NCBI RefSeq assembly: GCF_008974265.1
Contig: NZ_BKZW01000001.1
Span: 2,790,001-2,854,000 of the forward strand
Length of the DNA: 64,000 nt
Direction: 5' to 3'
DNA from: Dictyobacter vulcani
GTDB lineage: Bacteria; Chloroflexota; Ktedonobacteria; Ktedonobacterales; Ktedonobacteraceae
Shown here: positions 19,948 to 49,070 of the stretch, in pieces
How positions within the stretch are numbered: position 1 is the stretch's first letter
Layout: the number at the start of each line of letters is the position of its first letter
Program-made: the position numbers and the translations under genes
Notes under the pieces: generated by a model
Told to the model about the DNA's origin: nothing
Seen by the model: only the letters and a program-made list of their open reading frames with translations
Database searches by the model: none

Positions 19948-20156
19948 ACCTGCATATCCTTTCTCAAATGACGAACCACATATGTTGGTTCCTCTATAGC
20001 TTATCCCAATTAACATGGGCTTGTAAAATAAGCGCTGGCGGGCGAACAGGCGTCCACATGGTGGCAAAAGTTGAATGTAGCTGCGATGTAACATTTCTTG
20101 AGGTCATGCGACGAAGAGGATGAGATCTCAATATCAGGGAATTGCAGAGGACGCAG

Positions 20157-20717
20157 ATGCAATTGTTTAAACACCCATCAAAGCAGGATCATAAGATCCT
20201 GGTCGCGGAATTATATACATGTTATGCGCCGGCCATGCTGATGTATATCCGCCGAAAAGTCCTTTCTCAGGAGGATGCGGAAGATATTTTATTAGATGTC
20301 TTTACCGCTGCCCTTGAGAGCAAGTTGTTGAGCGAGCTCAATGCATATAAGCGGCGCAGCTGGCTCTGGAGCGTCGCGCATAACAAAATTATGGATTATC
20401 ATCGGCGCACCAAACATCGTGTGCATACGAATCTGGAGGATGTAGAAGAGGATTTGTTTGACGACGAGAGGGATATGCCAGAGATCGCTGTGGTGCGTGG
20501 TGAGGCGCACGCACTGGTTCGTGCGCGTCTACACACGCTTTCAGATGTGCAGCAAGAAGTGGTGCGTTTACGCTTCGCCCATGGTCTGCGTAGCGCTGAA
20601 ATCGCGGCCATGCTTAATAAGAGCGAAGCGGCCGTACGTGTAATGCTCTCCCGCGCCCTCAACAGTTTGCGGGGCATCTACAACAAGGATGGCGAGGAGT
20701 CGCATGATGGACGATAA
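20157..20717 (+). CDS. ECF-type sigma-70 factor, first copy
   Basis: 186 residues from the ATG at 20157, with AGAGGA five bases upstream. A TTG at 20142 is less likely. Region 2 spans about residues 15-90, with YAPAMLMYIRRKVLSQEDAEDILLDVFTAALES and the -10-reading segment WLWSVAHNKIMDYHRR. Region 4 spans 130-180 with the helix-turn-helix RLRFAHGLRSAEIAAMLNKSEAAVRVMLSRALNSLR. It is a clear paralogue of the sigma factor at 46839, sharing EDAEDxLLxVFTAAxES. Its stop overlaps the start of the next gene, a one-pass membrane protein that probably controls it. Confidence 0.93.
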   Translation: MQLFKHPSKQDHKILVAELYTCYAPAMLMYIRRKVLSQEDAEDILLDVFTAALESKLLSELNAYKRRSWLWSVAHNKIMDYHRRTKHRVHTNLEDVEEDLFDDERDMPEIAVVRGEAHALVRARLHTLSDVQQEVVRLRFAHGLRSAEIAAMLNKSEAAVRVMLSRALNSLRGIYNKDGEESHDGR

Positions 20718-22239
20718 AGAATACTTTAATCCAGGAATTGTAGATGAGCAGGTTGATGCGTTACTGCAAACCAGCGATCCCGCTGAAAAAGAGCAGCGCA
20801 CCGTACACGACCTACAAGAGATCTACCAGAGCGATCTCCAGTCCCTTGAACGCGTCTGGAAGAGTCTGAATCTTGGTACCGATACGGGGTTTGGGGAGAG
20901 GCCCTGGCTGGACAACATCTCTCACACTGATACATCATCTCCCTATTATGAAAGGTCTCGATCTATGCAAGGACAGCATACACAACGCGATAAGACCAGT
21001 GCCAGGCTGGCTTTGACACGACGTTTTAGTCTGATTGCCGCCGTACTGGTGGGGGCTCTGCTGGTCGGTAGCCTGATCGCTTTTCTGAATATTAGTCATC
21101 CACCGCAAGGTTCTGCGTCCGTTCCGAATAACCCGCAGGCGAAGACTCCTGCTGGTTTGTATCTTAGTTATGACAACGGTGTGAGCAAATACGATGCTAA
21201 AACGGGAAAAACCGTCTGGCGTTACGATGCGGCTTCGATCAAAGGCTCACCTCAGAAAATTGTCTCAACTGGCAATGCGGTATTCGTGTTGATGAGTAAT
21301 GAGCTGAAGGATTCTGTTGCTTCAAGCATGGTTGCCCTGAATGCGCAAAACGGCTCTGTTTTATGGCAAAAGAAGTTAACCATACCTGGAGGAAGCGACA
21401 TGGTGGTCGAGGACGGTAACGCCTATGTTGTCAGTACAGATGGTACCCATTTTAAATCAGAGATTGACGTCTTTGAAACCAGCACAGGCACAAAGAAGGC
21501 AAGTTATCCCTTATCATTGGTAATTAATGCGATAATCGTAGATACAGGCAAATTGTATCTGGGAACCGATCAGGGGCTGTATGTGGTAAATGCACAAAAC
21601 GGCAAAGTGATCTGGAAGGATCAGGTAGCTGGCAGTAGCAAGCCGTACATGCCTTACCGTGTCGTGACTCATATTGTGAATAAAGTTGTATACGCTGCTT
21701 TTCAAGGACCCAACACTTCATACTTCAAGGCATATAATGCGCAAAGTGGTGTCAAACTATGGCAAAGCAAAGCGATTGACGGACAGATTCCCGACTTCAC
21801 GATTAGTGGTCAGCAGTTGTATACAAGTGTTACGCAGCCATTTGGAATTGTGAGCAATACAATCTATGCTTACAATATCCAGAATGGGAAATTAAACTGG
21901 TCCGTGTCAATGCCGGATCACATAGGGTCGGAACCTACATCTAACAAAGGGGTTGTTTATGTGTATACCTATGCAGGTAAACAAACAGGAAAGAAAGATA
22001 TGCTAAACGCTTTCAATGAGAGTACTGGCAAGCGTTTATGGCAGAAACCAGTGATCGGTGGTCAGTTTAGTCTCTCCAGTGTGGTCATGGGAAGCGATCT
22101 AATCTATGTTATGAATGCCGACGCTGCTGCTCCCTCTTCTCATCGTCGGACTCATGTCGATGCTTACAATCTTAATGGCACGCAGATATGGGATATGACG
22201 ATTGATAAATACGTGATCTCTCTAGTCTTTAAATCGTAA
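20704..22239 (+). CDS. membrane-anchored PQQ-like beta-propeller protein, probable sigma-factor partner
   Basis: 511 residues; start at ATG 20704 or 20707, both served by GAGGAG at 20694-20699. The start overlaps the sigma gene end by 14 bases. Residues 1-105 are cytoplasmic and contain the motif HDLQEIYQSDLQSLERVWKSL. One membrane segment lies at about 109-130. The outer part has at least six PQQ/YVTN-type propeller blades (GVSKYDAKTGKTVWRYDA, ALNAQNGSVLWQKKL, AYNAQSGVKLWQSKA, AYNIQNGKLNWSVSM, AFNESTGKRLWQKP). A short cytoplasmic domain, one membrane span and a large outer sensor match anti-sigma or co-sensor architecture. No zinc-type anti-sigma motif is seen, so the role is inferred from context. 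Confidence 0.75.
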   Translation: MMDDKEYFNPGIVDEQVDALLQTSDPAEKEQRTVHDLQEIYQSDLQSLERVWKSLNLGTDTGFGERPWLDNISHTDTSSPYYERSRSMQGQHTQRDKTSARLALTRRFSLIAAVLVGALLVGSLIAFLNISHPPQGSASVPNNPQAKTPAGLYLSYDNGVSKYDAKTGKTVWRYDAASIKGSPQKIVSTGNAVFVLMSNELKDSVASSMVALNAQNGSVLWQKKLTIPGGSDMVVEDGNAYVVSTDGTHFKSEIDVFETSTGTKKASYPLSLVINAIIVDTGKLYLGTDQGLYVVNAQNGKVIWKDQVAGSSKPYMPYRVVTHIVNKVVYAAFQGPNTSYFKAYNAQSGVKLWQSKAIDGQIPDFTISGQQLYTSVTQPFGIVSNTIYAYNIQNGKLNWSVSMPDHIGSEPTSNKGVVYVYTYAGKQTGKKDMLNAFNESTGKRLWQKPVIGGQFSLSSVVMGSDLIYVMNADAAAPSSHRRTHVDAYNLNGTQIWDMTIDKYVISLVFKS

Positions 22240-46448: not shown

Positions 46449-46838
46449 CAGTTTCTCGCTTTCCATAATTACAAAGTAAGACATAAGGATGACAGGCCAG
46501 GATGTTGCATGTACTGAATATGGACTGTCATCTGCGCGTCGGGTCAATGGATGGATGACATCTCAGAACAGGATCGTGTATAGGGTTCGTGTGACACGAA
46601 ATACATATATGCTATCGTTCGGAGGTAGTGATTACTCACAGCATATTTGTCTATTTCGTGTGAACATATTATTGACGACACTATCTCCCACATTCTGTAT
46701 AATTATGTAACCTTTTTAGTCAAAGTCATTGAAGTTGATAAATACAATGCTAAATATCCTTCTCCTCTAACATTTTTTTGCATCAAACGATGAGTTAGTA
46801 CAAGCAATTAAAAATTACTTTTATGTCAAAGGAAGACG
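46449..46838. other. divergent intergenic region
   Basis: 390 AT-rich bases between the surface-protein gene and the second sigma factor. AAAGGAAG at about 46828-46835 is the ribosome site for the sigma gene. No hairpin or riboswitch was recognised. Confidence 0.45.
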
Positions 46839-47384
46839 ATGCATCATATGCAACATGCACAATTTTCCACTCATGCATCACCGATTGCGCACCTGTTCAA
46901 GCAATATGCGCCGATTATTCTGGCTTTATTCTGGAAACGGGGCGTGCAGGTAGAGGATGCCGAAGATTTGCTGTTAGAGGTGTTCACCGCAGCGATCGAG
47001 AGTCCCAGACTATTAACCCTGCCGGAGAATGAACAGCTAGCCTGGTTGAAACGGGTGGCCCATAATAAGATGGTCGATCATTATCGCCGCCAATCGTATC
47101 GGCAGACAACAACCCTTGATGACAGTGCCCACCTGCTATTTGAGAGCGATGAGGTGGCGCCCGAATATGTGGCGATGCGCCAGGAAAGCCATGCCGAGTT
47201 GCGGTCCCATATTTCCAACCTGCCTACCGACCACCAGGAGATACTGCGGCTACGCTTCACCTATGGTATGTCCTCGAAAGAAATTGCCCAACTCTTACAT
47301 AAAAGCGATACCGCGGTGCGTGGCCTTCTCTGGCGAGCGGTTACTCTGTTACGTAATGTCTATCGTGAGAAACAGGGGAGGTAA
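46839..47384 (+). CDS. ECF-type sigma-70 factor, second copy
   Basis: 181 residues. Region 2 has FKQYAPIILALFWKRGVQVEDAEDLLLEVFTAAIES and LAWLKRVAHNKMVDHYRRQ. Region 4 has LRLRFTYGMSSKEIAQLLHKSDTAVRGLLWRAVTLLR. It is paralogous to the sigma factor at 20157, with the same EDAEDxLLxVFTAAxES block. ATG with AAAGGAAG upstream. The next gene starts four bases after its stop codon and encodes a membrane protein whose cytoplasmic N-terminus resembles that of the first pair, so a partner or anti-sigma relation is likely. Confidence 0.93.
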   Translation: MHHMQHAQFSTHASPIAHLFKQYAPIILALFWKRGVQVEDAEDLLLEVFTAAIESPRLLTLPENEQLAWLKRVAHNKMVDHYRRQSYRQTTTLDDSAHLLFESDEVAPEYVAMRQESHAELRSHISNLPTDHQEILRLRFTYGMSSKEIAQLLHKSDTAVRGLLWRAVTLLRNVYREKQGR

Positions 47385-47387
47385 GAC

Positions 47388-49070
47388 ATGAGACCGTACG
47401 ATGATAAGGTTACAGCCGACAATATCGAGCAGAAGATCGAGCAAGTATTCCAGGCTCATGGTCAGGCGCAACCTGGCGCTTCCCCGGATGAGCAGGTCTT
47501 ACAAGAGCTGTACCAGACACTCTATTATGGGGACGATGGTATTATGGATCGCGTGTGGCACCGTTTGGCGGAACGCTATCCGTTGCTGGAGGAGCAACCT
47601 GCTATGACTGATGCCAGAACCGTCGTTAAATTTCCGCAGCCGAGCACAGCCAATCCACCGCGACCAACCCCAAAACTGGCACCGCGCAAACCATGGCGGC
47701 GCAACCTGAGTATCCTATTAATAGTGGCCGCCTGTATCTTACTGATTGGCAGTAGCCTATTTATCTTTACCCAGTATCAGAAGCCCTTCCAACCAGCCAC
47801 GCCGCATCCGAAGAGTCCGTTGCAAATGTTTGATCGCCACGGCAAATTGCTCTATCAGGTGGAGAGCAATGATAAGGTGACACTGGGCACGACACCAGTG
47901 ACCCGAGACTTTATCAATTATTCGCTGAATGAACTTGCCAATGACCTGCACGTGCAGCAGACAGAGCTCGGCCGTATGGGACTCAACGTAACGACCACAC
48001 TGGACACGAATCTACAGATGCAGTCCTACCAGAAGGCGCAGCAGACGATTGTCACCGCCAAAAAGGAGCATAACATTGATGATGCTGCCACCGTCGTGCT
48101 GGATTATCACGATGGCTCGATCCGCGCACTCTATGGAAGCGTGAGCAATCAGGATCCTGAGTTCAACGCCGCCACGCAAAAGGGACGCCCGCCGGCTTCC
48201 ACCTTTAAACCCATCGACTATATCACCGCTTTTGAGCAAGGCATCAGTCCGGGCGAGGTCGTCAATGATGTCCACCAGATCTTTCCAATTAATGAAGGTA
48301 ATATTCAAGGCTATGCACCATACGATAACGATAGGAACGAGTTGGGGTTGATATCGTATCGCCATGCCCTGCAAACCAATCGTAATATCCCCGCCGTCGA
48401 GCTTGTAACCCGCACCGGGATCAATGCCCTGTCCAGGCAAGCACAGGCACTTGGCTTAGATGAAATAGCTAACGGTTATGCAATGTCTCTAGGCACTCAA
48501 GATCAAACGGTCTTGAATACGACGGTTGCCTATGGCACGATGGCGAATCAGGGCGTCCATGTGGCATCCCATACCATCGAACTGGTTAAGGGTGCTGATG
48601 GGCGTGTACTGTACCAGGCCAGCCAGGCAGGCAAACGAATTCTTAAGTCTGGCGTTGCCTTTATGATCACCGACATCTTGAGTGATCAACAGGCGCACAC
48701 ACAAAACTTTGAAGCCTGCAATCCAGTCATCCTTTATACTGCTTCGAGCCAGCAATGCCAGGCAGGCCAACCAGGAACGATCCGCCCGGCCGCCATCCAG
48801 ACTGGTGAGAGCGATATGGCCCGTGATAACTGGACCGTTGGTTATACTACAGACTATGTAGTAGGAGTATGGGCAGGGAATCAAAAATATGAACCTTTGC
48901 GCAATGTAGCGGCTACGGATGGTGCCGGGCAGATCTGGCACGACACGATGCAACTGGCCGAGCAAGGTCTTCCCATCAGGCAGTTTCCAGCCGCGCCCGC
49001 TGATGTAGTACAAAAAACCATGACCTATCAGGGTCTCACCACCACCGATTGGTACCTTAAAGATCATTAA
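47388..49070 (+). CDS. membrane-anchored transpeptidase-like protein, probable sensor partner of the ECF factor
   Basis: 560 residues. Cytoplasmic residues 1-104 contain LQELYQTLYYGDDGIMDRVWHRL, like the first sigma partner. One membrane span lies at about 106-127. The outer part matches class A penicillin-binding proteins from the linker onwards (SLNELANDLHVQQTELGRMGLNVTTTLDTNLQ), but the glycosyltransferase (GT51) domain is absent. The active serine motif is kept (S271-TF-K274 in PPASTFKPIDY). The second motif SxN reads N331-R-N333, and KTG reads Q471-T-G473. Peptide cross-linking is therefore doubtful, while serine acylation is conceivable. Best guess: a cell-wall fragment or beta-lactam sensor. 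Confidence 0.85.
   Translation: MRPYDDKVTADNIEQKIEQVFQAHGQAQPGASPDEQVLQELYQTLYYGDDGIMDRVWHRLAERYPLLEEQPAMTDARTVVKFPQPSTANPPRPTPKLAPRKPWRRNLSILLIVAACILLIGSSLFIFTQYQKPFQPATPHPKSPLQMFDRHGKLLYQVESNDKVTLGTTPVTRDFINYSLNELANDLHVQQTELGRMGLNVTTTLDTNLQMQSYQKAQQTIVTAKKEHNIDDAATVVLDYHDGSIRALYGSVSNQDPEFNAATQKGRPPASTFKPIDYITAFEQGISPGEVVNDVHQIFPINEGNIQGYAPYDNDRNELGLISYRHALQTNRNIPAVELVTRTGINALSRQAQALGLDEIANGYAMSLGTQDQTVLNTTVAYGTMANQGVHVASHTIELVKGADGRVLYQASQAGKRILKSGVAFMITDILSDQQAHTQNFEACNPVILYTASSQQCQAGQPGTIRPAAIQTGESDMARDNWTVGYTTDYVVGVWAGNQKYEPLRNVAATDGAGQIWHDTMQLAEQGLPIRQFPAAPADVVQKTMTYQGLTTTDWYLKDH

Follow-up and report, generated by a model that had tools for sequence, protein, structure and literature searches.

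A putative ECF anti-sigma factor with a degenerate penicillin-binding-protein-like outer domain in Ktedonobacteria

A 64,000-nucleotide stretch of DNA (the window) from a soil-dwelling member of the Ktedonobacteria (Dictyobacter-like genome, 7.4 Mb) carries an ECF sigma factor gene followed directly by a gene for a membrane protein whose outer part resembles the transpeptidase of a class A penicillin-binding protein (PBP). With moderate confidence, we interpret the pair as an ECF sigma factor and its membrane anti-sigma factor, with an outer domain that was formerly a class A PBP transpeptidase, is mostly catalytically dead and would read the state of the cell wall non-covalently. For the Ktedonobacterales as a whole, we see roughly even chances that such pairs belong to an ECF anti-sigma family with a common N-terminus and exchangeable sensors, in which two penicillin-recognising folds, class A transpeptidase and S11 carboxypeptidase, would each have been taken up and, with catalysis lost, have come to act as receptors of wall state; one such receptor would be made of two proteins, a pseudo-carboxypeptidase and a pseudo-transpeptidase lipoprotein.

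The gene pair and its N-terminal domain family

A sequence-only reading of this DNA had placed an ECF sigma gene directly upstream of the PBP-like gene, and this was borne out: the sigma stop codon and the partner's ATG are three bases apart (Table 1; frame calling was mechanical, with possible errors in start codons). The sigma factor is of the ECF type, with regions 2 and 4 only, and scored above the cut-off of the NCBIfam sigma70-ECF model; the closest NCBIfam model was BldN-like (below cut-off), and the best PDB sequence match was 6dxo, the RsbN–BldN entry. The two genes share one frame, separated by TAA-GAC only, such that read-through would yield a single fused protein; no sign of such use was seen, and the arrangement is not conserved (the frames overlap in D. 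aurantiacus).

Table 1 Features of the sigma/partner pair and of a paralogous pair in the window
Feature	Positions	Strand	Basis or remarks
Putative ECF-type autoregulatory promoter, TAACATTT-N12-CGATG	46768..46792	+	Conserved in relatives; starts 71 bases before sigma start codon
ECF sigma gene	46839..47384	+	181 aa; Sigma70_r2 and Sigma70_r4 Pfam matches, NCBIfam sigma70-ECF
Ribosome-binding site, AGGGGAGG	47374..47381	+	6 nt 5' of the 47388 ATG; overlaps sigma gene end; read directly from sequence
PBP-like partner ORF	47388–49070	+	560 aa
N-terminal cytoplasmic domain, putative anti-sigma	47388..47612	+	Residues about 1–75; profile searches, ECF pairing, three predicted helices
Single predicted transmembrane helix, LSILLIVAACILLIGSSLFIFT	47706..47771	+	Residues about 107–128; hydrophobicity, low-confidence model; span within conserved family alignment
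Probable pre-GT51 strand remnant of class A PBP, SPLQMFDRHGKLLYQ	47814..47867	+	Resembles DNTKIYDARGNLIFQ / DSLKMYDAHGTLIYQ
Inter-domain linker and transpeptidase domain	47901..49061	+	Residues about 172–558; PF00905, TIGR02074, own bifunctional PBP (46% identity)
S271-T-F-K274, SxxK kept	48198..48209	+	Alignment to solved class A PBPs; family alignment
N331-R-N333 at SxN position, serine lost	48378..48386	+	Alignment to solved class A PBPs; family alignment
Q471-T-G473 at KTG position, lysine lost	48798..48806	+	Alignment to solved class A PBPs; family alignment
Second ECF sigma gene, same family (paralogue)	20142..20717	+	
Partner of 20142 sigma: same-type N-terminal domain and transmembrane helix, PQQ/BamB-type beta-propeller outside	20689..22239	+	

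The fused transpeptidase version was found in three Dictyobacter-type genomes (the window genome, D. aurantiacus and G026), in all three of which the ECF gene lies directly 5' of the transpeptidase-type partner and the flanking genes are unrelated; a same-genus genome, G025, lacks the fused form. Sigma orthologues adjoining the PBP-like gene are 81% (D. aurantiacus) and 66% (G026) identical to that of the window, and the D. aurantiacus orthologue of the PBP-like protein is 62% identical. The dN/dS of the PBP-like gene is approximately 0.18, with dS near saturation, and the outer domain is under apparent purifying selection. Relatives of the PBP-like protein were absent from a viral contig search, and a plasmid search returned only PBP matches of <60% identity covering <80% of the query.

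The one-span topology proposed earlier likewise held, with one hydrophobic helix in the (low-confidence) model, and the N-terminus is predicted to form helices at residues 10–23, 35–45 and 50–63 (AlphaFold model, low confidence). In ECF systems, an adjoining single-span protein with a helical cytoplasmic N-terminus is typically the anti-sigma factor; the conserved gene adjoining the 46839 sigma encodes a predicted protein of this kind, which is therefore likely to be the anti-sigma factor of that sigma.

This N-terminal domain of ~70 residues is not confined to the pair. It follows ECF genes about nine times in the window genome (9 copies), a profile built from five N-termini had matches in 27 of the 47 genomes of the class, and nearly all copies lie directly downstream of ECF genes of one family; among 350 Chloroflexota genomes searched with a 20-member profile, 20 matched, all of them Ktedonobacterales. 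In the consensus, a helix around F-x-PE-x-VDEQI is followed by the region RL-x3-LQ-x2-Y-x2-D-x3-L-x-R-x-W-x-RL, a variable stretch and one span. Profiles of the 20 members gave no anti-sigma match in Pfam or the PDB, only chance matches; some of the domains may already fall within the extended ASDI model of PMC7406223. An AlphaFold model of the sigma read through into the N-terminus (TAA as Q) had a mean pLDDT of 52, and its Foldseek matches were weak ECF matches only. The outer domains of the family are mainly beta-propellers (PQQ/BamB-type, WD40 and BNR), with S11 carboxypeptidase-like domains in four genomes and the transpeptidase in three. Wall carboxypeptidases recur beside this sigma family: at L155 1657–4940 of G026, an ECF gene and a partner with the N-terminal domain are followed by a small lipoprotein-like gene and then by an intact-looking S11 carboxypeptidase gene. 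The open literature, as far as covered here, contained no description of a transpeptidase/anti-sigma-like fusion or of Ktedonobacteria ECF systems.

The putative promoter upstream of the sigma gene recurs with the same spacing in D. aurantiacus and as a weaker CACACTT-N12-CGATG in G026. A relaxed pattern, TAAC[AG][TC]TT-N11-14-CG[AT], was present in 11 of the 45 paralogue ECF upstream regions versus 0.08 expected from shuffling, an enrichment that is partly circular because the motif was defined from the same sequences. Exact matches to TAACAYTT-N12-CGATG number only 2 in the whole genome, and the shorter TAACAYTT-N12-CGAT has just five sites, two of which precede ECF genes of the family linked to the N-terminal domain, which suggests that the 46839 sigma autoregulates its operon; near the other three, no clear wall gene was found in a regulon search. 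The 20142 pair has a promoter-like site of its own (TAACATTT-N12-CGAC, at 20089).

The transpeptidase domain, its motifs and its origin

The only Pfam match in the partner protein was Transpeptidase (PF00905, 8e-15, residues 234–488), with neither Transgly (GT51) nor a peptidase domain, and its score against the NCBIfam PBP_1a family model TIGR02074 was 216 of 509 bits, far below the cut-off. Its transpeptidase domain with the linker is 46% identical to the genome's own bifunctional PBP; Transgly is present in L004, a bifunctional PBP of the same genome. When the protein was aligned on solved class A PBPs, the nucleophile position was taken by S271, that of the SxN serine by N331 and that of the KTG lysine by Q471; thus SxxK alone is kept of the class A motif set. 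The earlier reading of these motifs (S271-TF-K274, N331-R-N and Q471-T-G, without GT51) was upheld by Pfam and by the class A PBP and family alignments, and the agreement of the two alignments indicates that no intact SxN or KTG lies in register elsewhere in the protein. Misalignment as a cause of the motif mismatch was rejected on the same agreement (solved PBPs and the 33-protein family). The fold-defining positions are largely retained, with 64 of the 87 columns invariant in GT51 PBPs kept; an AlphaFold2 model of the full protein from three sequences had a mean pLDDT of 34.

The family alignment comprised 33 related proteins, 25 with GT51 (all from Ktedonobacteria, and including near-copies within one genus and a fragment cut off by a contig end) and 8 without. 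SxxK, SxN and KTG are intact in all 25 GT51-bearing PBPs, so the window substitutions go beyond what is usual in this lineage; 7 of the 8 GT-less proteins, versus none of the 25, are without the SxN serine and without an intact KTG. Given as SxxK/SxN/KTG, the GT-less proteins read STFK/NRN/QTG (window), SAFK/NSN/ETG (D. aurantiacus), SVYK/SYN/KTG (G026, ECF-linked, all three intact), STFR/NYN/KSS (G035), STFK/ELN/MAG (G032 and G034), WAFK/GLN/MGG (G033) and STLK/NYN/VGA (G023). The expectation that the pair would recur in relatives with the same substitutions thus held for the pairing, found in three genomes, and failed for the substitutions, G026 being intact and D. aurantiacus having NSN/ETG.

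In the tree, all GT-less transpeptidases form one clade (100/100), within which the three ECF-fused proteins are a subclade (100/99) and the lipoproteins of G023 and G032–G034 another (100/97), with G035 unplaced. Because the intact G026 protein lies inside the fused clade, the substitutions are lineage-specific, and the serine and intact KTG disappeared on at least two occasions, barring a regain of both in G026. The G035 protein (L043 5616–7022) is an orphan pseudo-transpeptidase lipoprotein, and the 12.5 kb read there contain no ECF gene.

The probable strand remnant SPLQMFDRHGKLLYQ has counterparts (DNTKIYDARGNLIFQ / DSLKMYDAHGTLIYQ) directly ahead of GT51 in bifunctional PBPs of this genome and of related ones, and the linker after GT51 is also kept in GT-less proteins (RDFINYSLNELANDLHV versus PHFANYTLRELASDLHV). 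Retention of both makes the GT-less proteins look like class A PBPs with GT51 deleted, and the clade apparently derives from a class A PBP by this loss; in the fused forms, a different domain stands in place of the former PBP N-terminus. Elsewhere in the window genome, two transpeptidase match pieces, 47 bases apart and in different frames (G000:C1:2524813-2525840; L008 and L011), are possibly a broken or frameshifted PBP gene.

A second penicillin-type fold is found on the same N-terminus. In G023, G032, G033 and G034, the N-terminus carries an S11 domain with G or H at the catalytic serine position and without the KTG lysine, and the same genomes also contain intact S11 enzymes. The operon of G032–G034 consists of the ECF gene, the fusion of N-terminal domain and pseudo-S11, and, as its third gene, a GT-less pseudo-transpeptidase lipoprotein; in G023 (L041 1327–5625), the ECF gene and pseudo-S11 partner are followed by an intact S11 carboxypeptidase gene and then a convergent pseudo-transpeptidase lipoprotein gene. 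The pseudo-transpeptidase is thus fused to the N-terminal domain in some genomes and beside it in others, so that the same components occur both split and fused. Transpeptidase-linked (100/99) and S11-linked (97/86) ECFs fall in separate clades of the unrooted sigma tree, and propeller-linked sigmas group with the S11-linked clade on well supported branches; we read this as at least two recruitments of penicillin-type folds to this N-terminus, or as exchanges.

A proposed mechanism and its alternatives

We infer anti-sigma binding, the ligand and the release mechanism of the 46839/47388 pair as follows. The helical cytoplasmic domain would keep the 46839 sigma at the membrane, and the single span would join this domain to an outer one descended from the transpeptidase half of a class A PBP. 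With the SxN serine and KTG lysine lost, this domain probably no longer cross-links the wall; it may instead bind something that reflects wall state, either uncross-linked stem peptide or another wall protein. Binding or unbinding would free the sigma through conformational change or regulated proteolysis, and the freed sigma then probably drives expression of at least its own operon via the TAACATTT-N12-CGATG promoter. That the transpeptidase fold serves as the receptor part of an ECF partner, as the sequence-only reading had it, is well supported: its N-terminus comes from a large ECF-linked family whose outer domains are exchanged, the pairing recurs in three genomes, and catalytic residues were lost under apparent purifying selection. 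Sensing would be its putative role. Purifying selection despite the loss of acyl-transfer residues is best fitted by a non-covalent wall-state sensor, and the intact motifs of G026 indicate that catalytic loss is not needed for the pair's role.

Alternatively, the protein could be a covalent beta-lactam receptor of the BlaR1 or PbpP kind, with acylation of S271 setting the sigma free. Retention of SxxK in the window, D. aurantiacus and G026 proteins makes this possible, and there is a precedent in PbpP of Bacillus thuringiensis, the gene for which lies directly 3' of sigP-rsiP and S301 of which is required for activation (PMC8092216). However, the beta-lactam sensing suggested earlier is weakened by the substitution of the KTG lysine, the residue that binds the beta-lactam carboxylate in BlaR1 (PMC9834060), with Q in the window protein or E in D. 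aurantiacus, and of the SxN serine with N; more is lost within the GT-less clade (S271 replaced by W in G033 and K274 by R in G035), and no beta-lactamase gene was found beside the pair. We regard such a receptor as unlikely, and as less likely than non-covalent reading of wall state. Lipoprotein versions without the N-terminus adjoin ECF operons or sit in them, as if acting by protein contacts, and overproduced PbpP S301A still activates SigP (PMC8092216); both would suit a transpeptidase domain that serves for docking, by binding other wall proteins or keeping the anti-sigma at certain wall sites, while the signal comes from another protein, yet no partner protein was found, and this arrangement seems distinctly unlikely.

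It is very unlikely that the outer domain is still an enzyme (a weak transpeptidase or carboxypeptidase), with the ECF link merely setting its amount: the G026 orthologue has all three motifs and the fold-defining positions are largely kept, but the SxN serine and KTG lysine are lost from the window protein, and the N-terminus is common to proteins with propeller outer domains, which are not wall enzymes. The variation of catalytic motifs between relatives might also reflect an old PBP remnant that has drifted since the fusion and has no part in sensing. Such decay would be highly improbable given full-length frames in three species, conserved pairing and a low dN/dS (dS near saturation), and a pseudogene was rejected on this ratio.

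Significance and comparison with known systems

If correct, the non-covalent receptor reading would show a wall-building enzyme turning into a signal receptor, with a series on one signalling N-terminus that runs from intact (G026) through degenerate fused (window, D. aurantiacus) to degenerate separate lipoproteins, and with a parallel second fold. It would offer a tractable system in which to study what wall-stress receptors recognise once acylation is impossible, and it exposes an anti-sigma-like domain absent from Pfam that has interchangeable sensors.

The nearest known system, by analogy, is SigP–RsiP–PbpP of Bacillus thuringiensis (PMC8092216), which likewise has a membrane-controlled ECF sigma and, in the same cluster, a PBP as sensor, the role proposed here. 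There, PBP and RsiP are separate and the PBP is acylated by beta-lactams (PMC8092216), whereas here the transpeptidase is part of the putative anti-sigma factor and lacks the SxN serine and KTG lysine, and no relation of the N-terminus to known anti-sigma domains was detected. With BlaR1 and MecR1, the protein shares, as predicted from its sequence, a penicillin-recognising fold outside, a signalling part inside and transcription control. BlaR1 couples a class D beta-lactamase-like sensor to a metalloprotease that faces the cytoplasm and acts on BlaI (PMC9834060); the window protein differs in its single predicted span, class A PBP transpeptidase, lack of a protease domain, ECF partner and changed motifs.

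Compared with class A PBPs (PBP1a family), the transpeptidase domain and linker are shared, at the identity to the genome's own bifunctional PBP given above, but GT51 is gone, an anti-sigma-like N-terminus stands instead, and SxN and KTG are changed. As in the anti-sigma factors RsiW, RseA and RsbN (of RsbN–BldN), a small helical cytoplasmic domain and one span are encoded next to the sigma gene. Among Chloroflexi ECFs, 72% have a class I anti-sigma domain nearby, and the outer domains of class I anti-sigmas are reported to be conserved within groups (PMC7406223). Unlike RsiW, RseA and RsbN–BldN, the family described here has no detectable N-terminal sequence match to them, and its outer domains are exchanged among the partners of a single narrow sigma family.
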